Source of the DNA: Erysipelotrichaceae bacterium
GTDB taxonomy: Bacteria > Bacillota_I > Bacilli_A > ML615J-28 > CAG-313
Assembly: GCA_015059015.1 (NCBI GenBank)
Contig: SVBG01000003.1
Span: 1 to 64,000, forward strand
Direction: 5' to 3'
DNA length: 64,000 nt
Both the position numbers and the translations under genes were made by a program. Under the pieces are notes generated by a model that saw only the letters and a program-made list of their open reading frames with translations, did not search any database and was not told the origin of the DNA. Positions 4,086 through 30,430 of this stretch are shown here, one piece after another (the stretch's first letter is position 1; each line of letters begins with the position of its first letter).

Positions 4086-4715
4086 ATGAATTATTTTGTT
4101 AGACCAATCGATGAAAAAGATAATTTAAATGAAATTTTTGATGTTTATTGTGAGCCAAAAACCGCTTATTATGTTGTAGAAGATAAAGACGGAAATATTA
4201 TCGCAGGGCTTGGTGTTTATAAAATAGAAGGAAATGAAAACACTTGTGAGTTAAAAGATTACTTTATTGTAGATTCTTTTAGAGATTTAAAAATAATTGA
4301 AGATTTAGTTAATATGTGTATATTGTTTTCTAAAAAGTATTATAATTCTATTTGCATTAAGGTATCTGATGATGATATAATTTTAATGAATGTTTTAATA
4401 AATAAAAAGTTTAAATTTGTAAATGAAAAAATAGATAATTTAGATGTGTTAGACAATCAAAAATTATATTTGTTAAAATATAAGACTATTGGTTGGAAAA
4501 AAGAAGTTTTTTGTGAACTTATTGGGGTTATGTTTGCTTTTATACTTTTTATGGGTCTTGGTTTAATAGTTTCGCTATTTTTACCAGATAAATGTCAAGA
4601 AAAACTTGATTTTGAATGGATGATGGTTTTAGGTGGATTTGTTTTTATTATGTTACCATGCTTATTATTTGTATTAATACGTATGGTATTTGAAAGAAAG
4701 GACAAGAAAAAATGA
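4086..4715 (+). CDS. GNAT-like domain fused to two membrane helices
   Basis: A 209-residue protein. Residues 1-135 look like a divergent acetyltransferase fold: strand-rich DGNIIAGLGVY, an ELKDYFIVDSFRDLKI turn in the place of the acetyl-CoA segment, then a KKFKFVNEK end typical of GNATs. A canonical Q/RxxGxG/A loop is not evident, so activity is uncertain. Two hydrophobic segments follow (about 148-170 and 182-203) and the tail is basic. The ATG at 4086 is chosen because AGGAAG at 4074-4079 is six bases before it; an earlier in-frame ATG at 4065 has no ribosome site. The stop overlaps the next gene in ATGA. Confidence 0.6.
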   Translation: MNYFVRPIDEKDNLNEIFDVYCEPKTAYYVVEDKDGNIIAGLGVYKIEGNENTCELKDYFIVDSFRDLKIIEDLVNMCILFSKKYYNSICIKVSDDDIILMNVLINKKFKFVNEKIDNLDVLDNQKLYLLKYKTIGWKKEVFCELIGVMFAFILFMGLGLIVSLFLPDKCQEKLDFEWMMVLGGFVFIMLPCLLFVLIRMVFERKDKKK

Positions 4716-7645
4716 AAAAATTATTTGTATTATTTTTAATGATAACTTCGTTATTAATGATAACTTCGTGTAAACCAAAAGAATATACGATTACGCTTAA
4801 GTTTGAAGATGGTACTGTTTTTGAAACTTTAGTAGTTGAAAAAGAGACATCTGTTAATTTAAATACTCCTACAAAAGATGGTTATACATTTAAAGGTTGG
4901 TACGAGGGGGATATATTAGTAGATGGAAAAAATGGATTTGATAAAGATACCACTTTAATTTGCAAATTTAATATAAATTCATATACTTATAAATTTATAG
5001 TTGATGGTGTTATTATTAAAGAAGAAACTGCAGTATATAATTCTAATATTGTATATCCGGAAAACCCTGTAAAAGAATCAACACAACAATATTCGTACTT
5101 ATTTAAAGAATGGGATAATACGGCAATTGTTCTTTTAAAAGATGAAGTATTTAATGCAGTATTTGAAAGTACAACTAATCAATATACTTATAAGTTTGTA
5201 GATACTGATGGTACAGTATTAAAAGAAACAACAGCTGACTATGGAACAGAAATTGTTGCACCAAACGATCCTTTAAAAGAAGGCAATGCAGAATTTTCTT
5301 ATACATTTGCAGGTTGGGATAAAGATGTAACAATTTTAACAGAAGATGTTACTTTTACTGCAACTTATACTGAAACTAAGAATAAGTATACTTATAAGTT
5401 TGTAGATGAAAATGGTACTGTATTAAAAGAAGAAACTGCTGATTATGGAACAGAAATTGTTGCACCAAGTGATCCTGTAAAAGAAGGTAATGCAGAATTT
5501 TCTTATGCATTTGCAGGATGGGATAAAGATGTTACTATTTTAACAGAAGATGTTACATTTACTGCAACTTATACTGAAACTAAGAATAAGTATACTTATA
5601 AATTTGTAGACGTTGATGGAACAGTATTAAAAGAAGAAACTTGTGATTATGGAACAAAAATTGTTGCTCCAAGTGATCCTACAAAAGTAGGAAATGCAGA
5701 ATTTTCTTATACATTTGCAGGATGGGATAAAGATGCTACTATTTTAATAGAAGATGTTACATTTACTGCAACTTATACTGAAACTATAAATCAATATACA
5801 TATAAATTTGTAGATGATAATGGTAAAGTTTTAAAACAAGAAAAAGTTGATTATGGAACTGAAATTATTGCTCCAACTAATCCTGAAAAAGCACCAACTG
5901 CTGAATATACTTATACATTTACTGGTTGGGATAAAGAATTTACAATTGTTACTGGAAATATCACTATTACTGCTGTTTATTCTAAAGTTAAAAATCAATA
6001 TACTTATAAGTTTGTAGATGAAGATGGAACGATATTAAAAGAAGAAACAGTTGATTACGGAACAATGCCTATTGCACCAGAAAATCCTAAAAAAGAAGCA
6101 ACAGATGAGTATGAATATAAATTTGTTGGTTGGGATAAGAATATTTCTAAAGTTATTGCAGATGTTGTTTATACTGCAGTTTATGAAGAAAAAGAGATTA
6201 AAGGTGAAATTACATCACTAGAAGGACTTAAAATTTCATTCTTAGGTGATAGTATTTCTACATTCTATGCAGAAGGTTCAGAAATGAATAGTTACTATGG
6301 CGGAGAAAATGAATTTTTCTATCCTAGATATTCTCATTCAATTAAAACAGTTGATCTAACTTGGTGGTGTAAACTTATTAAGAATAATAATATGGTTCTT
6401 GGTGTTAATAACTCATGGAGTGGTTCTCAAGCATGTGGATCAGGTAATTCTGCTGGTCAATCTGATTATCGTATCAATACAATTAATGAAAATGGTAATC
6501 CTGATATTGTTATTGTATATTTAGGAACTAACGACCTAGGAAGTAGTAGAACTATTTCAGATTTAGAAAGTGCTATTACAAATATTATTAATAAAATCAA
6601 TGCTAAATGTGATACTCAAATTTTCTTAACTACTCTTGGATATAGTGCTTATTCAGGTGGCTCTTATACAGATGCTAATCGTGTTTTATATAATGCAAAA
6701 TTAAGAGAACTTGCAGCTAAATTTGAATGTGGTATTGTTCCTCTCGATGAATATGTTGTTGATGATAACTATATGATTTATTTAGAAGATTCGCTTCATT
6801 ATAATGCAAAAGGTGCTAATTTATTATCATTGATTGCAGAAAAAGCATTAAAAGATTATTATAATATTTCATTTGATAAAGAAATTGTTGTAGAACATCA
6901 AGAACCACTTCCAGAAGGTGCAGTAGGAGTTATTACTGCAACATCTAATTCAAATTTCTGGGGTACATATGCAACTGATGTATTCTTAGGTGATTCTTCG
7001 TTTACTAATGCTCCTTATAGTCATCGTATTGAGATTACTAAGAATACTGAAAATGGAAAGTATTATGTTTCAAAAATTACAAAATCTGGTGAATCTACTA
7101 CATTTAATTGTGATTTTGTATTAGTAATTTCAGAAGCAAATGAAGAGTATAGAGCATTATTAGCTCAAATAAGTAATGTTCAAGTTGGAAATATTGTTGA
7201 ATTTGACGAATCACTTAATTTCCCTATTGAAATTATCTTTAAAGAAGGTGACGGAAATACACCTAGTACTCCAGTTGTTCCAGAGCCTGATCCAGAAGTA
7301 AATCCTCCTGTTGAAGGACAACTTCATATAGCTGCATACAACACGGGTGTTTGGACTGATTATGATAAAACGGCAATACTTTATACTAATGATGCAATTG
7401 ATAAAGCAAGCACTTATATTAACTTCTATATAATTAAACTTACTTATGACGAGACAAAAGATAAATATCAAATTACCGGTTTAAAAACAATTGATATTGC
7501 TTGTACATTTGATGATTGTGACTTATACGTTTTAATTTATCGTGATTTTGCTGATAAGACATATTTTGAAACCGCACAAGAAGGAAATTATGTTGTTATT
7601 AATGGAGATATGACAACAGGTAGTTGTAACATTTTATTTGAATAA
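4712..7645 (+). CDS. Repeat-rich SGNH-hydrolase lipoprotein
   Basis: A 977-residue surface lipoprotein. The signal peptide ends in lipobox LMITSC. The next module (about 25-88) is an InlB-type repeat with GYTFKGWYE. Residues about 89-495 hold six tandem repeats of about 68 residues ending in a GWDK-containing block. Then comes an SGNH/GDSL hydrolase domain: block I FLGDSIST (about 512), block III YLGTND (about 603) and block V DSLHYNAKGA (about 693) supply Ser, Gly/Asn and Asp-x-x-His. The C-terminus has two similar domains of about 100 residues separated by a Pro-rich linker. SGNH enzymes at the surface usually de-esterify polysaccharides or lipids; the substrate here is unknown. Four nearby proteins are also predicted to be exported or membrane-anchored. 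Confidence 0.85.
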   Translation: MKKLFVLFLMITSLLMITSCKPKEYTITLKFEDGTVFETLVVEKETSVNLNTPTKDGYTFKGWYEGDILVDGKNGFDKDTTLICKFNINSYTYKFIVDGVIIKEETAVYNSNIVYPENPVKESTQQYSYLFKEWDNTAIVLLKDEVFNAVFESTTNQYTYKFVDTDGTVLKETTADYGTEIVAPNDPLKEGNAEFSYTFAGWDKDVTILTEDVTFTATYTETKNKYTYKFVDENGTVLKEETADYGTEIVAPSDPVKEGNAEFSYAFAGWDKDVTILTEDVTFTATYTETKNKYTYKFVDVDGTVLKEETCDYGTKIVAPSDPTKVGNAEFSYTFAGWDKDATILIEDVTFTATYTETINQYTYKFVDDNGKVLKQEKVDYGTEIIAPTNPEKAPTAEYTYTFTGWDKEFTIVTGNITITAVYSKVKNQYTYKFVDEDGTILKEETVDYGTMPIAPENPKKEATDEYEYKFVGWDKNISKVIADVVYTAVYEEKEIKGEITSLEGLKISFLGDSISTFYAEGSEMNSYYGGENEFFYPRYSHSIKTVDLTWWCKLIKNNNMVLGVNNSWSGSQACGSGNSAGQSDYRINTINENGNPDIVIVYLGTNDLGSSRTISDLESAITNIINKINAKCDTQIFLTTLGYSAYSGGSYTDANRVLYNAKLRELAAKFECGIVPLDEYVVDDNYMIYLEDSLHYNAKGANLLSLIAEKALKDYYNISFDKEIVVEHQEPLPEGAVGVITATSNSNFWGTYATDVFLGDSSFTNAPYSHRIEITKNTENGKYYVSKITKSGESTTFNCDFVLVISEANEEYRALLAQISNVQVGNIVEFDESLNFPIEIIFKEGDGNTPSTPVVPEPDPEVNPPVEGQLHIAAYNTGVWTDYDKTAILYTNDAIDKASTYINFYIIKLTYDETKDKYQITGLKTIDIACTFDDCDLYVLIYRDFADKTYFETAQEGNYVVINGDMTTGSCNILFE
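4976..6196 (+). repeat. Six tandem about 204-bp repeats within the SGNH lipoprotein gene
   Basis: Units begin at 4976, 5177, 5381, 5585, 5789 and 5993; the last five are exactly 204 bp apart. The copies at 5177, 5381 and 5585 are nearly identical even at silent positions, which points to recent duplication or gene conversion. Copies at both ends are more diverged. Copy number is likely to vary among strains. Confidence 0.9.
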
Positions 7646-7692
7646 AAGTGACAAAGTTATTGACATAAAATAATATATAAAGCATAGAGTTT

Positions 7693-7969
7693 ATGAATAA
7701 AAGTTATTTATAATTATATTATTGTTTTTATATTATTAGTACGTTGTACTGAAAGCAATAATGAACTTATAAATAATGATAATACAAATATTCATGCATA
7801 ACCTATATTATTTAATAAAATTGATGATACAGTAAATTCTATAATATTAAAAAATGTGGAAAGACATTTAATATAAGTTCAAAATGTATATATTGAATCA
7901 ATCTATATATTCACTTCATATGGTTATATTGTTAAAAACTTGTTAAAAATAAGATTAACTAAAAGTTAA
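7693..7969 (+). pseudogene. Decayed small lipoprotein gene
   Basis: An ATG at 7693 opens a short frame that stops at 7711, but the next frame reads a lipoprotein-like leader (YIIVFILLVRC, lipobox LLVRC, Cys codon at 7745) followed by TESNNELINNDN. It then continues to 7969 with two in-frame TAA codons (7799 and one near 7874). One frameshift plus two stops indicate a decayed gene. This accounts for most of the 536-bp space between the two large lipoprotein genes; the rest is a terminator and AT-rich promoter DNA. Confidence 0.5.
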
Positions 7970-7982
7970 TCTTATTTTTTAT
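7946..7982 (+). terminator. Strong intrinsic terminator
   Basis: A 15-bp perfect inverted repeat (AAAATAAGATTAACT, 7946-7960, and its complement, 7964-7978) with a 3-nt loop and a T run. It terminates the transcript coming from the SGNH lipoprotein gene and the decayed gene. Confidence 0.9.
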
Positions 7983-8142
7983 TATAATACTTTTTTAATA
8001 TATGAAATAAATTTATTAATATTAAACAAACATTCATTACCACAAATTTATACCATTTTTTTTAATAATATTATAATATATTAATAATTGTGACTCAAAT
8101 GATTAAAAATAAAATATAATTAATGAATAAAAAATCTTTTTA

Positions 8143-8151
8143 TGTTATAAT
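8143..8151 (+). promoter_or_regulatory. Extended -10 promoter of the NlpC/P60 lipoprotein
   Basis: TGTTATAAT: a perfect -10 with the TGn extension, 30 bp before the ATG at 8182. No convincing -35 is seen at 17 bp. Confidence 0.65.
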
Positions 8152-8181
8152 GTAAATGAATAATTATGAAAGAGAGTTAAT

Positions 8182-10875
8182 ATGAAAAAAGTTTATTATT
8201 TTATTATACTATTACTATTTACAGTGCTTGTAAGTTGTTCAGAAACTACATATCAAGTCAAATTTATTGGTTTTGATGATATGATTTTAAAAGCAGAAGT
8301 AGTAAATAAAAATGCTTATTTAGAGTATCCTGACGTTCCAACAGTAGATGGTTATACATTTGTTGAGTGGGATCAAGATATTGAAAAAGTAACATCTGAT
8401 TTAGTTATAAAAGCGATATACAGAAAAAATCAATTTAGAGTCGTTTTCTATAATGAACTTGATGAAATCATTAGTGAACAAATAGTTGATTATGGAAAAA
8501 GTGCTGAAAATGTAACACTTCCATCAAAGGAAGGATATAATTTTATTGGTTGGGATAAAGAATTTATTAAAGTAACATCTGATTTATACATTAAACCAAT
8601 ATTTGAACAAAAAGAGTTTACAGTTAATTTTTATGATGAAGAAAGTAATGTTATTAAAACTGAAACTGTAAAATATGGTGAATCAGCAATAGGAATAACT
8701 TTACAAGATAAAGTTGGTTATAAGTTTGTTGGTTGGGATAAAAGCATTACAAATATTACTAGTGATTTAGAATTTTATCCAGTTTATGAAGTAATTACAT
8801 TCACAGTTAAATTTTATGATGAAAATAATAATGTTCTAAAAACTGAGATAGTTAATTATGGAGAAAGTGCTTCTTATAATAAAATTCCAGAAAAATCAGG
8901 TTATAAATTCGTTGGTTGGGACAAAGACTTAACAAATGTTTTAAGCGATTTAGAAGTATACCCAGTTTATGAAATAATGACATATACAGTTAAATTCTAT
9001 GATTTTGATAAAAATGTGGTTAAAACTGAAACTGTGGAATCTGGAAAATCAGCAACCTCTGCAACTTTAAAAGAATTAGAAGGTTATAATTTTATTGGTT
9101 GGGATAAAGAATTTACTAATGTTATAAGTGATTTAGATGTTTATCCTGTATATGAAATTATTACATTGACTGTTAAATTTTATGACTTTGATAAAAATCT
9201 AATTAAAACTGAAACTGTTAATTATGGTAGTAATGCAGTAGGTATTTATAATCTTACAAAAGAAGGTTATGAATTTATTGGTTGGGATAAATCTTTAACT
9301 AATGTTATAAGTGATTTAGATGTTTATCCTGTTTTTGAACAAATTATTTATGTAGTTAATTTCTATGATATTGAAGGTAATATTATAAAAACTGAAGAAG
9401 TTGCACATGGTGAAAGTGCTGAAGGTATTACTGCACCTAATGTATATGGTTATAAATTTGTAAGATGGGATGAAAATATTGAACAAGTTACTACTGATTT
9501 AGATGTATTCCCTATTTATGAAGAAGAAGTATATACAGTAACATTTGTTGATTTTTATGGAAATATATTAAAAACTGAAACTGTAAAATATAAAGAAAGT
9601 GCAACAGCTCCTAATGCTCCAACAGTAGAATATCATACATTTAGTAAATGGAGTTTAGATTTTAGTGAGGTTAAGAATAATATGACTGTTAAAGCTGTAT
9701 ATAATAGTAATTTTAATTCATATCAAATATCTAATGTTAATTATTGGTTACAAATTTTATCTAAAAAATATGATATTAATCAAACAATTTTAAAACAAAC
9801 TGAGATTAGTTCTTATAATGCTAAAATTACAAGTAATTATTCAAAAACAAAAGTTGTAGATGTATTAAATATTACTGGTAGCAAAACTTCATCATATGTA
9901 TCTGAACTAATTAATAAATATTCAAATATTAATAAATACACAATTTATGATAAAGATACGAATCAAAGTATTTCTTCAACTGTAAAAGAAAATATTTTAA
10001 GTAACAGAAATTTAAATAATATTCCAAGTAGCGTTACAGTAAAATATGGTATTATAACTGATTTTGCATGGATGAGAAGTTATCCAACAAATCATTATTC
10101 ACAAACATATGATATGGATAGATTCCAAGAAACTTCCCTTAATGTTGGTGAAGGAGTAGCAATTTACCACGAAAGTAATGATAAAGAGTGGTACTTTGTT
10201 CAAGCTGAAAACTATAATGGATGGGTAGAAAAGAAGTATATCGCAGAATGTAGCTATGATGTGTTAGAATCATTCTTAAAACCAAGTAAAAATTTAGTCG
10301 TTATTAGTGATTATGTAACACTTCAATCTGCACATGTCCGTATGGGACAATCATTCCCATTATTAAGTATTAGTTCTGATAGTTATGTAATTAGTTTCCC
10401 AACTAGAACTAGTGATGGTAAACTTAGTTTAATAGAACTTGCTGTTGCAAAATCTAATGATTATCATGAAGGATATCTTGAATACACTTATAAAAATGTT
10501 TTTGTTCAAGCATTTAAATTACTTGGAATTGACTACAGTTGGGGAGATAAAAGTAACCTTGGTCGTGACTGTTCATCTACGATGAATGCAATATATAAGA
10601 GTTTTGGTTTTATGATGCCAAGAAATACATCTAATCAAGTTGCTATACCAACATATGGTTCAAGTGTTAGTGGCTTATCTAACACTAGTATTCAATCTTA
10701 TAAACCAGGAACAATGATTTTTACTAGTAGTCATGTTATGCTATATATTGGTGAAGATTTAAATGGAACAGCTTATTTATTACATAATACTACATCAGGA
10801 GATGGTGCATGTATCTTACAATCACTGAACTCTTATGGTGGTAGTAAGATTAATGGTGTATTAAAATTACAATAA
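8182..10875 (+). CDS. InlB-repeat, SH3 and NlpC/P60 peptidoglycan hydrolase lipoprotein
   Basis: An 897-residue surface lipoprotein. The signal peptide has lipobox VLVSC. Residues about 24-511 are eight tandem 61-residue repeats containing GWDK. After a linker, an SH3-like domain (about 625-685) ends in NYNGWVEKKYI, followed by an NlpC/P60 domain (about 770-895). Its catalytic Cys is in GRDCSST (Cys797), His in SSHVMLYIG (His851), and a third polar residue in LLHNTT (His868). NlpC/P60 enzymes cleave peptide stems of peptidoglycan. The repeats resemble those of the upstream SGNH lipoprotein but have a different period. It has its own promoter and terminator, so it is probably monocistronic. 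Confidence 0.88.
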   Translation: MKKVYYFIILLLFTVLVSCSETTYQVKFIGFDDMILKAEVVNKNAYLEYPDVPTVDGYTFVEWDQDIEKVTSDLVIKAIYRKNQFRVVFYNELDEIISEQIVDYGKSAENVTLPSKEGYNFIGWDKEFIKVTSDLYIKPIFEQKEFTVNFYDEESNVIKTETVKYGESAIGITLQDKVGYKFVGWDKSITNITSDLEFYPVYEVITFTVKFYDENNNVLKTEIVNYGESASYNKIPEKSGYKFVGWDKDLTNVLSDLEVYPVYEIMTYTVKFYDFDKNVVKTETVESGKSATSATLKELEGYNFIGWDKEFTNVISDLDVYPVYEIITLTVKFYDFDKNLIKTETVNYGSNAVGIYNLTKEGYEFIGWDKSLTNVISDLDVYPVFEQIIYVVNFYDIEGNIIKTEEVAHGESAEGITAPNVYGYKFVRWDENIEQVTTDLDVFPIYEEEVYTVTFVDFYGNILKTETVKYKESATAPNAPTVEYHTFSKWSLDFSEVKNNMTVKAVYNSNFNSYQISNVNYWLQILSKKYDINQTILKQTEISSYNAKITSNYSKTKVVDVLNITGSKTSSYVSELINKYSNINKYTIYDKDTNQSISSTVKENILSNRNLNNIPSSVTVKYGIITDFAWMRSYPTNHYSQTYDMDRFQETSLNVGEGVAIYHESNDKEWYFVQAENYNGWVEKKYIAECSYDVLESFLKPSKNLVVISDYVTLQSAHVRMGQSFPLLSISSDSYVISFPTRTSDGKLSLIELAVAKSNDYHEGYLEYTYKNVFVQAFKLLGIDYSWGDKSNLGRDCSSTMNAIYKSFGFMMPRNTSNQVAIPTYGSSVSGLSNTSIQSYKPGTMIFTSSHVMLYIGEDLNGTAYLLHNTTSGDGACILQSLNSYGGSKINGVLKLQ
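8251..9714 (+). repeat. Eight tandem 183-bp repeats in the NlpC/P60 gene
   Basis: Each unit encodes 61 residues with the pattern xVxFYDxxxNxxKTExVxYGxSA then GYxFxGWDK, and ends SDLxVYPVYE. Copies are more diverged than in the SGNH gene. They are InlB B-repeat-like stalk modules that hold the catalytic domain away from the membrane. Confidence 0.85.
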
Positions 10876-13526: not shown

Positions 13527-14858
13527 ATGAAAAAAGATAAAAAACAACAAATAAATAATGTAATAAAATTAAGTATACCTGCAATTCTTACGCAACTTGC
13601 GACTATCGCCATGCAGTATATTGATTCTGCAATGGTTGGTCGCTTAGGTGAAAATGCTTCAGCTGCAATTGGGCTAGTTTCAACTACTACCTGGTTATTT
13701 AGTGGTATATTATCAGCACTTGCTGTTGGGTTTAGTGTTCAAATTGCTCATCATTTTGGGGCTAAAGAATTTAAAGAAGGGAGAATTGTATTAAGACACG
13801 GTTTAGTTTTTTCATTTATAATATCTTTTATTTTACTAGTAATAGGTTGTAGTATTGCATATCCACTTCCGATCTTGCTTCGAGCAGATCCATCAATATG
13901 GAATGACGCAACACTTTATTTTGTAGTCTTTACGCTTAGTTTACCTTTTATGATGTTAAACAATATTTGTGCATCAAGCCTACAATGTAGTGGTAATATG
14001 GTTGTACCAAGTATATTAAATGCAGTTATGTGTTTATTAGATGTAATATTTAATATAATTTTTATACCACTATATGGTGTATTAGGTGCCTCAATTGGTA
14101 CTGCTTTATCTGTTATAGTAACTTCTTTAATTATGTTTATAATTTGTTGTTTTATTGATAAAAAATTAAGAATTACCGTTAGTGATAATACGAAATATAA
14201 TAAAATTATTATTCATAAAGCAATTAAAATATGTATACCGATTGCATTAGAACAAGTAGCAAGAAGTGGTGCAATGATAGTTTCTACTGGTATAATAGCT
14301 CCACTAGGCAATACTGCCATTGCAGCTAATTCATTTGCTGTAACTGTTGAAAGTATATGTTATATGCCTGGATTTGGTGTTCAGTCTGCTGCTACTACAC
14401 TTGTTGGTCAAGAAATGGGAGCAGGAAATTATAAAAAAGCAAAACAATATGGAAATATTTCAATTTGGCTTGGAAGTTTAATAATGACAGTGATGGCTAT
14501 TATGATCTTTGTTCTTTGTCCATACATTTTTAAACTATTAACTCCAGTAGAAGAAGTTCAAGCACTTGCAGTAACAGTTCTTAGAATCGGGTGTTTTGCA
14601 GAACCATTATATGGAGTATCAATTGTTTCATCAGGTGCATTAAGAGGTGCAGAAGATACTTTAGTTCCAAGTATTTTAAATCTTTTATCTATTTGGGTTG
14701 TTAGAATTACTTTGGCTATTATATTAGTAGTTCCACTTGGACTTGTTGGTGTATGGCTTGCTAATACGATTGAATTATGTGTAAGAGGTATTTTGCTTCT
14801 TATTAGACAAGTAACTTCAAAATATTATTTTAGAAAAGAAGTAAAAATTATTGATTAA
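13527..14858 (+). CDS. MATE-family efflux transporter
   Basis: A 443-residue, 12-helix membrane protein in two homologous halves. The N-terminal signature IPAILTQLATIAMQYIDSAMVGRLG and the second-half PIALEQVARSGAMIVSTG are characteristic. MATE proteins export drugs or metabolites in exchange for sodium or protons. AGGT precedes the ATG; a clear promoter lies at 13472. First gene of a run followed 27 bp later by a GNAT enzyme. The substrate cannot be read from the sequence. Confidence 0.92.
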   Translation: MKKDKKQQINNVIKLSIPAILTQLATIAMQYIDSAMVGRLGENASAAIGLVSTTTWLFSGILSALAVGFSVQIAHHFGAKEFKEGRIVLRHGLVFSFIISFILLVIGCSIAYPLPILLRADPSIWNDATLYFVVFTLSLPFMMLNNICASSLQCSGNMVVPSILNAVMCLLDVIFNIIFIPLYGVLGASIGTALSVIVTSLIMFIICCFIDKKLRITVSDNTKYNKIIIHKAIKICIPIALEQVARSGAMIVSTGIIAPLGNTAIAANSFAVTVESICYMPGFGVQSAATTLVGQEMGAGNYKKAKQYGNISIWLGSLIMTVMAIMIFVLCPYIFKLLTPVEEVQALAVTVLRIGCFAEPLYGVSIVSSGALRGAEDTLVPSILNLLSIWVVRITLAIILVVPLGLVGVWLANTIELCVRGILLLIRQVTSKYYFRKEVKIID

Positions 14859-14885
14859 ATATAGTAATGAGGAGGTGAAAATAAT

Positions 14886-15377
14886 ATGAAATTAAGTCTT
14901 GCTGAAAAAAAAGATTTAGATAGTGTTTTAGAATTATATGAAATTGCTAAGAAAACTAAATATTGTGTATGGGATGATGAATATCCAACAATTGAAAATA
15001 TTAATTTTGATTTTAAACACGATTGTTTATATGTGTTAAAAGATGATGACAAAGTTATAGGTGCAATATCAATAAATTATGAAAATGAATTTGATGATTA
15101 TCCAGATTTATGGCTTTATACTAAAGATCCATGTGAAATAGCAAGATTAGTAGTAAATCCTGAATATCAAAATAAAGGATTTGGTGAATTTATAATAAAA
15201 GAAATTAGCAAAATACTTAGTGAGAAAGGTTATTATTGTATTCATTTAGCGGTTGCAGTTAATAATTTACCTGCAGTTAGGTTATATGATAAATGTGGTT
15301 TTCTTCAAGATTGTACTACTTATATGTTTGATAATTATTACTATTTCTATGAGCAAAGAATTGATAGAATTAAATAA
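14886..15377 (+). CDS. GNAT-family N-acetyltransferase
   Basis: A 163-residue acetyltransferase. The acetyl-CoA-binding strand and loop are clear: ARLVVNPEYQNKGFGEFII (about 89-107, Q/RxxGxG variant NKGFGE), followed by the ending AVNNLPAVRLYDKCGF. AGGAGGTG lies 8 bp before the ATG. It is placed between the MATE exporter and the methyltransferase in the same direction, with gaps of 27 and 39 bp, so co-transcription is likely. The substrate is unknown; a link to the RNA repair genes is not evident. Confidence 0.88.
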   Translation: MKLSLAEKKDLDSVLELYEIAKKTKYCVWDDEYPTIENINFDFKHDCLYVLKDDDKVIGAISINYENEFDDYPDLWLYTKDPCEIARLVVNPEYQNKGFGEFIIKEISKILSEKGYYCIHLAVAVNNLPAVRLYDKCGFLQDCTTYMFDNYYYFYEQRIDRIK

Positions 15378-15416
15378 TTTTGTTTTTTCAAAAATTTCCT
15401 TATAGGAGGTTATGAG

Positions 15417-16091
15417 ATGTTAGACTTAAAATCATTAAAATATGCTTATATAAAAGGTTTTATAATAAGTAATAATCTTAATGAATATATGGATATTGCT
15501 AATAAGCAACTAGATTTGTTAACTGATAGAGATTTAGATATACTAGATAATGTTGTTAAAGAATATAATCTTAAAACATATTATTTTAAAGAAAAAGAAG
15601 TTCTTTCAAGGGTAAAAATAGTGCTAAGTTTTTTAAGAGCAATAAATCCTACAAGTATCCTTGATGTTGGAAGTGGTAGAGGTGTATTTTTATTCCCATT
15701 CTTATGTGAATTTATTGATTGTAAAGTTACTTCTATTGATATTCTTGAAAGAAGAGTAGAACTTTTAAATAATATAAGTTTAGGTGGAGTTGTTAATTTA
15801 AATGCAGTGTATGGTGATTTAACTAAGTTTGATTCAAGTGAGTCGTATGATTGTGTAACGTTATTAGAAGTTTTAGAACATATTCCAGATGTTAAAAGTG
15901 CAATAAAAAATGCCATAAATTTAAGTAAACAGTATATTGTTGTAACTGTTCCTTCAAAAGAAGATGATAATCCAGAACATATTCACTTTTTAACAAAAGT
16001 TGTCTTAACCAAATATTTTAACGATTTTGGGGTGACTAATTTAAAATTTAGCGGAGTAAATGGTCATTTATTCCTAATTGCTAGAAAGTAG
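15417..16091 (+). CDS. Class I SAM methyltransferase, possibly Hen1-like
   Basis: A 224-residue enzyme. SAM motif I ILDVGSGRG is at 81-89, the acidic end of strand 2 at SIDI (106-109) and motif IV at YDCVTLLEVLEH (144-155). E151, E154 and H155 plus H188/H190 reproduce the ExxEH...H arrangement that holds the metal in Hen1 RNA 3'-terminal 2'-O-methyltransferases, but EVLEH also occurs in ordinary UbiG-like enzymes. It is only 8 bp from an RNA ligase gene, which favours an RNA substrate. AGGAGGT is 6 bp from the ATG. The methyltransferase fold is certain; the Hen1-like role is inference. Confidence 0.8.
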   Translation: MLDLKSLKYAYIKGFIISNNLNEYMDIANKQLDLLTDRDLDILDNVVKEYNLKTYYFKEKEVLSRVKIVLSFLRAINPTSILDVGSGRGVFLFPFLCEFIDCKVTSIDILERRVELLNNISLGGVVNLNAVYGDLTKFDSSESYDCVTLLEVLEHIPDVKSAIKNAINLSKQYIVVTVPSKEDDNPEHIHFLTKVVLTKYFNDFGVTNLKFSGVNGHLFLIARK

Positions 16092-16099
16092 GTGATATA

Positions 16100-16888
16100 A
16101 TGTATAATCAAATATTTAAATATCCAAGAACTAAACATTTAGAAGGTTCACGTCTTCAAAAAGGTGATGAAGATTTAAGTCAAGTTCCTTTTAAAGATAT
16201 TTTTGGTAAATATATTGTAATTGAAGAAAAAGTAGATGGAGCTAATGCGGCAATATCATTTTCTGATAGTGGGGAACTATTACTTCAAAGTAGAGGACAT
16301 TATCTAACAGGAGGATATCGAGAACGCCATTTTAATTTATTTAAACAATGGGCAAGTATTCATCAAAATGAATTTTATAAAGTACTTGGGAATAGATATG
16401 TTATGTATGGTGAATGGCTTTACGCAAAACATTCTGTATATTATGATGCATTACCTCATTATTTTATGGAGTTTGATATTTATGATAAAGTTGAAAATGT
16501 TTTTTTAAGTACTAAAAAAAGACATGAACTATTAAAAGATTTACCTGTTGAAAGTGTTAAAGTTCTTGCTGAGGGTAAGTTTTTTAAAGAAAAAGATATA
16601 TTAAAATATATTGGAACTTCTAACTTTATTTCAAAGAATCATCTTGATAATTTAACTAAAACATGTGAAAGTTTAGGAATTGATAAAGATAAATGTTTGA
16701 AAGAAACAGACAATTCAAGACTTATGGAAGGATTGTATATAAAAGTTGAAGAAAATGGAATTGTTAGTGATAGATTAAAATATGTAAGATATTCATTTTT
16801 ACAAACAGTTGTCGAATCAGGTACTCATTGGTTAGACCGTCCAATTGTTCCAAATAAGTTAGATAAAGATATTAATGAATTATTTTAG
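16100..16888 (+). CDS. ATP-dependent RNA ligase
   Basis: A 262-residue ligase of the covalent nucleotidyltransferase superfamily. The AMP-accepting Lys44 is in motif I (EEKVDGAN). Other motifs follow in order: LLQSRG (Ia-like), YVMYGEWLYAKH (III), YFMEFDIYD (IIIa), LMEGLYIK (IV) and RLKYVR (V). All are intact, so it should be active. Rnl-type enzymes seal 3'-OH and 5'-phosphate RNA ends. It is followed 8 bp later by an HD-polynucleotide kinase gene that could prepare such ends, and preceded 8 bp by a methyltransferase. No DNA ligase C-terminal domains are present. The substrate, perhaps cleaved tRNA, is not visible. Confidence 0.9.
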   Translation: MYNQIFKYPRTKHLEGSRLQKGDEDLSQVPFKDIFGKYIVIEEKVDGANAAISFSDSGELLLQSRGHYLTGGYRERHFNLFKQWASIHQNEFYKVLGNRYVMYGEWLYAKHSVYYDALPHYFMEFDIYDKVENVFLSTKKRHELLKDLPVESVKVLAEGKFFKEKDILKYIGTSNFISKNHLDNLTKTCESLGIDKDKCLKETDNSRLMEGLYIKVEENGIVSDRLKYVRYSFLQTVVESGTHWLDRPIVPNKLDKDINELF

Positions 16889-16896
16889 GTGATATG

Positions 16897-18054
16897 ATGA
16901 TTAATAAGTTATTAGAATTACTACCTAAAGATAAAACTTGCAATTTTAACTATATAATTAATGGCATTTTAGCTCCGTTTAAAATAGAATTAAAAAATAC
17001 CCACCAAGAACTATCATGGCATGGTGAAGATGATGTTTTGACGCACACTTTAATGGTACTAAAAGAATTGGTTAACTTAGATGATTATAATAATTTATCT
17101 GATATTGAAAAACTAACTGTATTTCTTGCTGCGACGTTTCATGATGTAGGTAAAATAGTTTGTACAAAAGTTATTGATGGTAAGATTAGATCTTATAACC
17201 ACGGAAAAGTTGGAGCTAGAATGGTAAGAAATTATTTTTATAAAGAACTTGGATTTGGTGGAAATAAAGAACTTTTAAATTTAAGAGAAGCAGTTTGTTT
17301 ATTAATTAAATATCACTCTAACCCTGTATATAGCGCCTTTGATGATGATGCTGAAAGAAAAATATTAACAATAGCTGCAAATAGTGAATTAACACCTCTT
17401 TTTAGTATAAAATTATTAAGTATTTTGTCTACTGCTGATGTACTAAGTAGAATAGGTTGTGAAAAAGAAGAACAAGTCGAAAAAATTAATTATTTTACTT
17501 TATTAGCTAATGAATTAGGCGTTTATGAATCTTATTATCGATTTAGTAATTGTCATACTAAGTTTAAATTTTTAAATAAAGAAACTAATTTTTATAATGA
17601 TACAATATATGATAGTTCCAAATGTGAAGTCCTTTTATTTGCAGGTCTACCTGGAACCGGAAAAGATACTTATATAAAAAATAATTTAAGTTATTTACCT
17701 GTTATTTGTTTAGATGATATTAGAGATGAAATAAAAGTTAAACCAGGTGAAGATGAATCTAAAGTAATTATGATTGCAAAAAATCGTGCAAAAGAGTTTT
17801 TAAGAAAAAATATTTCATTTGTATGGAATGCAACTAATGTTTCTAATATGACTAGAAATGGTTTAATTTCTTTATTTCACGATTATCATGCGAGTGTAAA
17901 AATAATTTATTTAGAAACCTCTTATAATGAATGTCTAATAAGAAACAAAGGTAGAATTAAAGAAGTTCCTTTAAAAATTATTGAAAAAATGCTTAATTCA
18001 CTTGTGATTCCAGAAAGTTTTGAGGCTGAAATTGTAGAGTGGGTTGTGGTTTAG
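16897..18054 (+). CDS. HD-domain phosphohydrolase fused to polynucleotide kinase-like P-loop
   Basis: A 385-residue two-domain protein. Residues about 40-200 are an HD domain (WHGEDDVLTHTLM, then ATFHDVGK and YNHGKVGARM, HSNP), like the HD part of tRNA nucleotidyltransferase. Residues about 240-385 are an AAA_33/T4 Pnkp-type kinase: P-loop GLPGTGKD, CLDDIRDE and VWNATNVSN, lid arginines near the end. The HD part could remove 2',3'-cyclic or 3' phosphates and the kinase could phosphorylate 5'-OH, preparing ends for the ligase upstream. Two adjacent ATGs exist (16894, 16897); the second has the usual 7-nt spacing to AGG. Domains are confident, substrates inferred. Confidence 0.85.
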   Translation: MINKLLELLPKDKTCNFNYIINGILAPFKIELKNTHQELSWHGEDDVLTHTLMVLKELVNLDDYNNLSDIEKLTVFLAATFHDVGKIVCTKVIDGKIRSYNHGKVGARMVRNYFYKELGFGGNKELLNLREAVCLLIKYHSNPVYSAFDDDAERKILTIAANSELTPLFSIKLLSILSTADVLSRIGCEKEEQVEKINYFTLLANELGVYESYYRFSNCHTKFKFLNKETNFYNDTIYDSSKCEVLLFAGLPGTGKDTYIKNNLSYLPVICLDDIRDEIKVKPGEDESKVIMIAKNRAKEFLRKNISFVWNATNVSNMTRNGLISLFHDYHASVKIIYLETSYNECLIRNKGRIKEVPLKIIEKMLNSLVIPESFEAEIVEWVVV

Positions 18055-18076
18055 AAAAAAAATATGTGAATATTTG

Positions 18077-18105
18077 TTGATTTTTATTTTAAGTTTTGAT
18101 ATACT
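18077..18105 (+). promoter_or_regulatory. Promoter of the pyrimidine operon
   Basis: TTGATT, 17-nt spacer, TATACT with TGA extension. Transcription should start near 18112, giving a leader of about 108 nt before pyrB. Confidence 0.85.
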
Positions 18106-18111
18106 AATGAA

Positions 18112-18187
18112 AGAAAAAATTGGACTTAAGTTAAAAGGTCAACATAATAATATTGTATTTGAGGCCTGTAAAAGGGCCTTTTTTTCT
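18112..18187 (+). promoter_or_regulatory. Attenuator leader of the pyr operon
   Basis: A terminator hairpin AGGCC (18162-18166)/GGCCT (18175-18179) with T7 lies within the 5' leader. An alternative hairpin can form earlier: AGGTCAA (18136-18142) with TTGA (18159-18162) and CCT (18165-18167), leaving two bulged G residues. This uses the 5' arm of the terminator, so the two structures exclude each other. Pyrimidine operons of Firmicutes are classically controlled this way by PyrR and UMP. No pyrR gene is in the window, so the sensor is inferred. Confidence 0.65.
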
Positions 18188-18219
18188 AAAAATATATATG
18201 GACATAAAAGGAGTTTAAC

Positions 18220-19083
18220 ATGAAGAATTTATTTACTTTAGATGAACTTACAAATCAAGAAATTCTTGATATTCTTAATGATGCTATTGATTTTTCTAAT
18301 GGCAAAACTTTTTCACTTTCTGGTAAAATTGTTGCTAATCTATTTTTTGAACCTTCAACAAGGACGGAGTATTCCTTTGTTACTGCGGAACATCTTCTTA
18401 ATATGAAGCCTATTTCGTTTAACAAAGCATCTTCGTCTTTTTCTAATAAAGGGGAAACTTTTTTAGATACTGTTAAATGTTTTGAAGCATTTGGTGTTGA
18501 TGCATTTGTAATTAGACATTCTGAAAATGAATATTATAAAAATTTAAACCTAAGTGTTCCACTACTTAATGCAGGAGATGGTACTCATGCACATCCTACA
18601 CAATGTTTACTTGATTTACTTACAATTTATCAAGAATTTGGATCATTTGAAGGTTTAAAGGTTTGTTTTGTTGGTGATATTAAATTCTCTCGTGTTGCTC
18701 ATGAAGGTATAAAAACTATGGAACGTCTTGGTATGGAATGTTTTGTAAGTGGACCTAACATTTATATGGAAGATGATTATAAGTTTGTTGAACTTGATGA
18801 AGCTGTTAAAGTTATGGATGTTATCGTTTTACTACGTGTGCAAAATGAACGTCATGGTGAAGGAGATCAAGTTGAAAAGTCTTCATATTTAGAGTTATAT
18901 GGAATGACTAAAGAACGTGCACTTAATATGAAAAAAGGTGCAATTATCATGCATCCTGCACCATTTAATCGTGGAATTGAAATTGAAGATGCAGTATTAG
19001 ACCTTCCACAATGTAGAATTTTTAAACAAATGAAAAATGGAGTGTTTGTTCGTCAAGCAGTTTTAAAAAGGAGTTTTGAATAA
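18220..19083 (+). CDS. pyrB: Aspartate carbamoyltransferase catalytic chain
   Basis: A 287-residue enzyme condensing carbamoyl phosphate with aspartate, the first committed UMP step. The carbamoyl phosphate loop FFEPSTRT (about 43-50), the SSSFSNKGET loop, HAHPTQCLLD (about 125) and the ending PAPFNRGIEIED are present. It is a little shorter than the usual 300-310 residues. No pyrI regulatory chain follows, as is normal in Firmicutes. AAAGGAG precedes the ATG, and the stop shares a base with pyrC. First gene of an eight-gene operon behind an attenuator. Confidence 0.95.
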   Translation: MKNLFTLDELTNQEILDILNDAIDFSNGKTFSLSGKIVANLFFEPSTRTEYSFVTAEHLLNMKPISFNKASSSFSNKGETFLDTVKCFEAFGVDAFVIRHSENEYYKNLNLSVPLLNAGDGTHAHPTQCLLDLLTIYQEFGSFEGLKVCFVGDIKFSRVAHEGIKTMERLGMECFVSGPNIYMEDDYKFVELDEAVKVMDVIVLLRVQNERHGEGDQVEKSSYLELYGMTKERALNMKKGAIIMHPAPFNRGIEIEDAVLDLPQCRIFKQMKNGVFVRQAVLKRSFE

Positions 19084-28535: not shown

Positions 28536-29924
28536 TTAATTTTGTTCTTTTAATTTTGCAACTAAATTAGCTTTTTGTTCAACTAATTGATTATATTTTG
28601 CTTCAATTTGATCTTTATATTCAGTTTCAAATTTTGTTATAAATTCTTTCTTTTGAGTATTTAATTCATTACTAATTTCATTTGCTTTTTCATTCATTAG
28701 AATACTTAAATCATTATTTTCTAAAATATAATTTTCAAGTGAAGCCAAAGCTTCATTTAATGACGTAGTTGCAAGGTTTAAAGCAGAATTAGCAGCGTCT
28801 TTAGCAAATTGTAAAGTAGCTTCTGCAGTTAATAAAGCTGTTTCTTGGGCTGATAATTGTGCTAATTTAATTGTTTTTTCTAATCCTTCTTCTAGTTTTT
28901 CAATTTCAGTTTTTAATATTAAAATTTCATTTTTTAGTTTATTAACTTCATTTAATGCTTTAATATACATAGAGTCTTCTGCAATAAACATTTCATTATA
29001 AGTTTGTTTTAGAAGAGTTAATCCATTTTCAACAGATAATTGTAGTTTACTATAATTTTGAATAATTTCATTACTAAGGTTAGAAGAAGTAGTTACAAAG
29101 TTTTTAAAAATCTTTGATTCTGCAATATCAACTTCATATTCTTTGAAGTTATTATACATTTCCTCAATTGCAGTAGTTGGTAGATTTATTCTTTCAATAT
29201 GATATGCAGCAATTAAATTAATTAATTCTTTATGAGATAATTCATTTAATTCTTCTATATTAAGTGTAGAATCTAAACTTAGAAGTTTGTTTATTAAAGA
29301 TTCTTTAGTGTTATTTTTAATAGTTGTTATTTTATCTTCAACTTTAATTCCAAGTTCAGTTAATTTTTCTTCAACATGAGCTTTAAGTTCAGTTTCTATT
29401 TCTGAAATTTTATTTTGTGTTGCTTCTGCATCAATAGTAATTGTTAAGTTATTATATTCATCTGATGTTGTATATTTTACAAAGAAACCACAATCAGTTT
29501 CTATTACTAAAATTTTATCAATAGCTTCATCATAAGTTTTACCTATAATTTCATCTTCAACATCTACAATAATCATTTTACCATCATCATTTGCACCATA
29601 AACAGAGGCAACAATACCTTTTTCATCAACAGTTAGTTGAATACTAGGGTTTAAGTCTAATGTAATAACTGCATTTGTTACAATTGGTTCATTTTGTTGA
29701 TTTGTTTGATTTGAATTTAATGTGCATCCAATAACAATTGCAGATACTGTAATAATAAATAAAGCTGTTGAGATAATTGCTAATTTTTTAGTTTTCATAA
29801 ATAGTAGTAATCCTTTCTTTTTATTGTTATTTATATTAGCTTTTTCTTTAATTAAATCAATATTATCATCATGATCATAGTTTTTATTGTAATATTCTTT
29901 AATAATTGTTCTTACATTTTTCAT
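28536..29924 (-). CDS. RsgI-like anti-sigma factor with long coiled-coil exterior
   Basis: A 462-residue membrane protein. A cytoplasmic basic part (1-45) precedes one membrane helix (about 48-68). Outside, residues about 80-170 match the RsgI middle domain: ITLDLNPSIQLTVDEKGIV, then GKTYDEAIDKIL. The remaining 290 residues are Glu/Lys/Leu-rich and predicted helical or coiled-coil, perhaps a sensor. The gene overlaps the sigma factor gene by one base (TAATG), which supports a sigma/anti-sigma pair. The N-terminal cytosolic segment would bind the sigma factor. The signal sensed is unknown. Confidence 0.8.
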   Translation of the reverse strand: MKNVRTIIKEYYNKNYDHDDNIDLIKEKANINNNKKKGLLLFMKTKKLAIISTALFIITVSAIVIGCTLNSNQTNQQNEPIVTNAVITLDLNPSIQLTVDEKGIVASVYGANDDGKMIIVDVEDEIIGKTYDEAIDKILVIETDCGFFVKYTTSDEYNNLTITIDAEATQNKISEIETELKAHVEEKLTELGIKVEDKITTIKNNTKESLINKLLSLDSTLNIEELNELSHKELINLIAAYHIERINLPTTAIEEMYNNFKEYEVDIAESKIFKNFVTTSSNLSNEIIQNYSKLQLSVENGLTLLKQTYNEMFIAEDSMYIKALNEVNKLKNEILILKTEIEKLEEGLEKTIKLAQLSAQETALLTAEATLQFAKDAANSALNLATTSLNEALASLENYILENNDLSILMNEKANEISNELNTQKKEFITKFETEYKDQIEAKYNQLVEQKANLVAKLKEQN

Positions 29925-30430
29925 TAAATCAACTCCTTTCTAAGGATTTTTATGGCTGTATAATATTCAGATTGTACTTTACTAGCAGGAATATTTAAGT
30001 ATTCTGCTATTACTCGAAATTTTAGTTTATGTACAATTTTTAATATTACTATCTCTGTTTGTAATTCAGTTAAATAATTTTTAATATCATAGATTAATAA
30101 ATTATTATTAGAATACTCTTTAACATTATAGATTTCTTCATCACTATAGATTGGTTTTTTATTTGCAACTCGAGTAACATAATTTTTTGATAGGTTTCTT
30201 GCGATCATCATGACATATTGCTTAAATTTACCTGTTTCAGTATAACTATCTAATGATGTTAAAAGTTTCAAAAATGTATCTTGTGTGAGGTCTTCACTTG
30301 CATTCTTATCTTTAGTAATACTATAACAGATGTAATAAACTAAGTTAGAGTATTCATAGTATACTTGTTCAAAGGCGAATTCGTCTTTTACTTTTAGTTG
30401 TTCAATTAGTTTTTTAGTTACTATTAACAT
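29924..30430 (-). CDS. RNA polymerase sigma factor, ECF type
   Basis: A 168-residue sigma factor with region 2 (about 15-85: FEQVYYEYSNLVYYICYSITKD, EDLTQDTFLKLL) and region 4 (about 115-165: TEIVILKIVHKLKFRVIAEYLNIPASKVQS). No region 1 or 3, as in ECF sigmas. Co-transcribed with the RsgI-like membrane protein that probably holds it inactive. No obvious autoregulatory promoter was found in the 150 bp upstream, which is shared with the divergent thioredoxin gene. Confidence 0.9.
   Translation of the reverse strand: MLIVTKKLIEQLKVKDEFAFEQVYYEYSNLVYYICYSITKDKNASEDLTQDTFLKLLTSLDSYTETGKFKQYVMMIARNLSKNYVTRVANKKPIYSDEEIYNVKEYSNNNLLIYDIKNYLTELQTEIVILKIVHKLKFRVIAEYLNIPASKVQSEYYTAIKILRKELI

Follow-up and report, generated by a model that had tools for sequence, protein, structure and literature searches.

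Three consecutive genes in the window, the stretch of 64,000 nucleotides that was analysed as a whole, very probably form a cassette of the HD-Pnk/RNA-ligase kind that heals and seals nucleic-acid ends, with a methyltransferase as its lineage-specific third member. The host is a low-GC, Bacilli-like gut bacterium. The genes, referred to as MT, LIG and HD-Pnk, are listed with the accompanying signals in Table 1. The end-healing and sealing reading is well supported and represents an already known kind of system. Enzymatic activities, and RNA as the substrate, are predicted from relatives. What MT does within the cassette is a matter of conjecture, and it is the one interesting part of an otherwise known kind of repair cassette.

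Table 1. Genes and signals of the cassette region, in window coordinates.
Feature	Coordinates	Strand	Domain match or remark
Shine-Dalgarno-like aggaggt, ahead of MT	15405..15411	+	
MT, class I SAM-dependent methyltransferase, 224 aa	15417..16091	+	PF13489 (Methyltransf_23), 1.6e-12
LIG, ATP-type RNA ligase, 262 aa	16100..16888	+	PF09414 (RNA_ligase), 4.5e-37
HD-Pnk, HD phosphohydrolase and P-loop kinase	16894..18054	+	HD, 2.6e-9; AAA_33, 7.1e-16; start may be 16897
Terminator-like hairpin, downstream of cassette	18161..18180	+	

The three open reading frames lay on the same strand, and ribosome-binding-like sequences preceded each of them, aggaggt ahead of MT and taggtgat ahead of both LIG and HD-Pnk. 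Gaps of 8 bp had been predicted between the genes. This was correct for MT and LIG, but the gap between LIG and HD-Pnk was 5 bp when counted from the first ATG at 16894 and 8 bp from the second at 16897. The start listed for HD-Pnk of the sister species corresponds to the second ATG. No Rfam elements were found in 14800-18400. The hairpin downstream of the cassette lies within sequence common to a cassette-free congener and therefore probably belongs to the pyrB leader rather than to the cassette. Two other regions of the window were conspicuous. Positions 4712-10875 encoded two large proteins, both repeat-rich and with Listeria-Bacteroides repeats; the first kind of domain complement was a GDSL lipase domain, in one of them, and the other had SH3 and NlpC/P60 domains. 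On the minus strand, at 28536-30430, a gene for an RsgI-like anti-sigma factor adjoined a sigma-70 region 2 gene, constituting a sigma/anti-sigma pair.

In two species, represented by the window genome and its sister, the cassette lay between a GNAT gene and pyrB. Congener G012 had the same MATE, GNAT and pyrB flanks, with msrA where the three genes would be, and its alignment with the window resumed homology at the HD-Pnk stop codon. MT, LIG and HD-Pnk are thus one unit between GNAT and pyrB, a discrete cassette as judged from one cassette-free relative. Comparison of window positions 14886-18220 with the corresponding locus of G012 (L116, contig C10) gave msrA in one congener and the repair cassette in two others, which suggests a variable spot adjoining pyrB. 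In family and order searches, full-length HD-Pnk was restricted to the window genome and its sister, as were MT and LIG in the class sample. A scan of genome contigs with the window HD-Pnk as sole query yielded few relatives. All three genes showed dN/dS values of 0.12-0.22 against the sister species, indicating purifying selection on genes that are not chance open reading frames. MT was the least constrained of the three. Its identity to the sister was 88% versus 97% for its neighbours, and its dS was 0.27 versus 0.08-0.11 for LIG and HD-Pnk. This higher silent-site divergence hints at a partly separate history of MT or at local recombination.

The original prediction of a fusion between an HD phosphohydrolase and a Pnkp-like kinase was borne out for the third gene. 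It encodes a single chain with an N-terminal HD domain, spanning about residues 40-190, and a C-terminal Pnk-type P-loop kinase, predicted as a 5'-OH polynucleotide kinase at about residues 243-375. Residues H43, H51, H83-D84, H103 and D182 of the HD domain and G256-K257-T259, D274, R277, R321 and R354 of the kinase were invariant across HD-Pnks, including that of Deinococcus radiodurans. The alignment with D. radiodurans DRB0098 (plasmid MP1) extended from end to end at 27% identity, against 24% in the search that retrieved it. By these sequence features, the protein is a member of the HD-Pnk family (DRB0098 type), and its enzymatic activity is predicted from relatives. The HD-Pnk of Runella slithyformis has reportedly been shown to heal RNA 2',3'-cyclic phosphates, and its gene is said to lie frequently next to that of a ligase. 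Matches of the kinase to other references were weak, with 24.5 bits for TIGR04075 (cut-off 750) and an E value of 0.001 for Capnocytophaga Pnkp1 (4xrp). A 2007 paper presented DRB0098 as an HD-hydrolase/polynucleotide kinase, demonstrated its kinase activity and placed a ligase-family gene in its operon; one study was unable to trace the HD phosphatase activity of DRB0098 to the HD residues (PMC1997131). The name HD-Pnk is used for this enzyme in later work.

LIG had likewise been predicted correctly, as an RNA ligase with all nucleotidyltransferase motifs. Motifs I, Ia, III, IV and V were present and a ligase fold was modelled. The nucleotidyl-acceptor lysine is K44, in EEKVDGAN. Among 19 homologues, K44-x-D46-G47, R65, E105, E210 and K227 were invariant or nearly so. 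The AlphaFold model of LIG had a pLDDT of 91, and its best PDB matches were RNA ligases, namely archaeal Rnl, trypanosome REL1, Naegleria Rnl and T4 Rnl2, with modest TM-scores near 0.5. Searching the PDB chains with the LIG sequence gave no match, so LIG is not close to Capnocytophaga Rnl. Homologues of LIG on phage-like contigs without HD-Pnk were often located near HAD-type PNKP or calcineurin-type phosphoesterases, which fits a ligase working with interchangeable healing enzymes.

Outside the genus, HD-Pnk often had a ligase as partner. At 20 of the 24 full-length loci examined there (L003, L004, L012, L014-L020, L022-L027 and L164-L167), an RNA ligase gene was located within about 3 kb of HD-Pnk, in most cases as its immediate neighbour in the same orientation. 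Loci L013, L028, L029 and L030 were without a nearby RNA ligase. The ligase-linked loci covered several phyla, plasmids and phage-like contigs, with Clostridium, Chitinophagales, a cyanobacterial plasmid, Variovorax, Pseudomonas, Bosea, Methylorubrum and Deinococcus among the hosts. The ligases beside HD-Pnks belonged to more than one subfamily. Adjacent genes for healing and sealing, a further part of the original prediction, are supported by family membership, by the catalytic residues, by the high confidence of the ligase model and by an adjacency conserved in many genomes. A gene for a TIGR02452/macro-like protein was located between ligase and HD-Pnk in D. radiodurans MP1 (L165, 6656-9359), indicating that the third gene of such cassettes differs by host. 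On the phage-like contig L030 (2725-7071), Thg1 and RlaP adjoined a divergent HD-Pnk, with no ligase within the stretch examined. Another phage-like contig, L022 (4400-7056), carried an HNH endonuclease gene between RNA ligase and HD-Pnk, possibly a homing insertion.

MT has ILDVGSGRG as motif I. The ExxEH...H set that had been noted in it was present as E151-x-x-E154-H155 and H188 and was conserved in the sister species. Membership of MT in Hen1, as suggested from this set, was not supported: MT scored weakly, is without the N-terminal domain of Hen1 and shares its metal-site motif with UbiG/COQ3. Profile scores were 60 bits for MftM, 41 for UbiG and 28.3 for bacterial Hen1 (TIGR04074), the last far under the curated cut-off of 340 and with a match beginning at position 220 of 462 of the model. 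The ligase-activating N-terminal domain of Hen1 was absent from MT, which has a short N-terminal stretch only and motif I near residue 80. Hen1 chains in the PDB matched at about 1e-3. A simple pattern test on 24 further class I methyltransferases of the family did not detect the ExxEH...H set in any of them. The same set occurs in Escherichia coli UbiG, as EMLEH followed further on by a His. For UbiG/COQ3, the histidines have been proposed to be metal ligands, homologous to those of HEN1 (PMC9774615), and the set is therefore not diagnostic of Hen1. In HENMT1, the residues are E132, E135, H136 and H181, and an FxPP motif is required (PMC10781085). MT is without FxPP, holding FKEK at 57-60, a similar distance ahead of motif I, and its H155-H188 spacing is 33 versus 45 for H136-H181 in HENMT1. 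The AlphaFold model of MT, with two homologues as input, had a pLDDT of 40.5, too poor to read metal-site geometry.

Searches at 1e-12 in plasmids, phages, viral contigs and 296 class genomes retrieved no relatives of MT outside the genus. Phylum matches at a relaxed threshold were weak and partial and were rejected as orthologues. Bacterial Hen1 was not found in 392 phylum genomes, and no related methyltransferase was present at the other HD-Pnk loci or the close LIG loci examined. A single neighbour gene flagged by the motif scan near other loci resembled a DNA methylase, not the MT kind. As MT had no detectable orthologue outside the genus, its linkage to a ligase was confined to the two sister species. 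As far as the searches reached, a condition set beforehand for refuting the Hen1 link, namely relatives of MT never lying near RNA ligases, was largely borne out. A defence-library match to mad2 (1.1e-12, methyltransferase region) was taken as the shared class I fold. MT is a lineage-specific methyltransferase that was not classed as Hen1, and a Hen1-like role is possible.

In the preferred reading, the HD domain would open and remove 2',3'-cyclic or 3'-phosphates, the kinase domain would phosphorylate the 5'-OH, and LIG would adenylate the 5'-phosphate and then join the ends. The likeliest substrate would be RNA, for example tRNA that a metal-independent ribonuclease has cleaved. The likeliest job of MT would be methylating the RNA handled by HD-Pnk and LIG, at or near the break. 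That the cassette repairs DNA, at breaks ending in 3'-phosphate and 5'-OH, in place of RNA appears unlikely. It would agree with the phosphorylation of DNA by the DRB0098 kinase (PMC1997131) and with the reported aid of D. radiodurans HD-Pnk to resistance against ionizing radiation and mitomycin C. However, LIG is of the RNA-ligase family with a model closest to RNA ligases, and the RNA-repair genes RlaP and Thg1 lie beside one phage-like HD-Pnk.

Two further alternatives concern MT. Its faster divergence than that of its neighbours and its absence beside all other HD-Pnk/ligase pairs examined suggest that it may be a passenger, which shares the same acquired segment by chance and acts on an unrelated substrate, either a UbiG/MftM-like small molecule or in general tRNA modification. 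MftM and UbiG as the best named profiles are in line with this. The 8-bp gap to LIG, the own ribosome site and the joint presence with LIG and HD-Pnk in both carrier species, whereas the same-flank congener has none of the three, speak against a passenger, which is considered rather unlikely. At the other extreme, MT could be a functional Hen1 that places a 2'-O-methyl group on the healed 3' end ahead of sealing by LIG, so that the repaired tRNA withstands the same toxin, in a third 'repair with immunity' system. An ExxEH...H set correctly ordered relative to motif I, conserved in the sister and absent from the 24 other methyltransferases, the 8-bp spacing, the presence as a unit and the weak profile and PDB matches to Hen1 favour such a function. 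It is nevertheless quite improbable in view of a profile score below the cut-off and below MftM and UbiG, the same set in E. coli UbiG, the missing FxPP motif and N-terminal domain, the deviating His spacing and the absence of MT from every other HD-Pnk pair examined. Similarly doubtful is a third 'repair and methylate' system for RNA that would have been assembled independently, through recruitment by an HD-Pnk/RNA-ligase pair of a UbiG/Hen1-like metal-dependent methyltransferase that marks repaired RNA against a second cut. The end-healing and sealing cassette with MT as lineage-specific third member is retained as the best explanation.

If MT does methylate RNA mended by HD-Pnk and LIG, two unrelated repair lineages would have converged on protecting the repaired site, and the 'repair with immunity' idea would become testable outside Hen1. 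Regardless of MT, the HD-Pnk/ligase core is widespread in bacteria, plasmids and phage-like contigs. Its third genes vary by host: D. radiodurans has one for a macro-like protein, one viral HD-Pnk has RlaP and Thg1 nearby, and the cassette described here has the methyltransferase.

The cassette resembles several known systems in part. Like DRB0098-DRB0099-DRB0100 of D. radiodurans, it encodes a fusion of an HD domain, at the N-terminus, and a P-loop kinase, at the C-terminus, and has a gene of the RNA ligase family in the same operon, but the third gene is TIGR02452/macro-like there and a methyltransferase here, and the ligases belong to divergent subfamilies. The T4 Pnkp/Rnl1 system shares 5'-kinase, 3'-phosphatase and RNA ligase and mends cut tRNA in T4. 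The Pnk of phage RM378 is of the HD type (PMC1997131). Both differ from the cassette in being without a methyltransferase, and in T4 the domain order and phosphatase fold differ as well. Bacterial Pnkp-Hen1 of Clostridium thermocellum and Anabaena likewise encodes a methyltransferase in the same operon as the healing and sealing functions, whereas its Pnkp is a single polypeptide of kinase, calcineurin-type phosphatase and ligase. The different arrangement that had been predicted relative to Pnkp/Hen1 is present, but it is not unprecedented, considering the HD-Pnk family (PMC1997131) and Pnkp1-Rnl-Hen1 (PMC4411300). The Capnocytophaga Pnkp1-Rnl-Hen1 is a complex of three separate proteins, a kinase/phosphatase, an RNA ligase and a methyltransferase (PMC4411300), so separate ligase and methyltransferase subunits have a precedent. 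In the text consulted, its phosphatase is not described as an HD domain, and its Hen1 has the N-terminal ligase-activating domain that MT is without (PMC4411300). Homology of the trio to this complex was limited to the weak kinase match. The novel element may be that a methyltransferase accompanies HD-Pnk and LIG.
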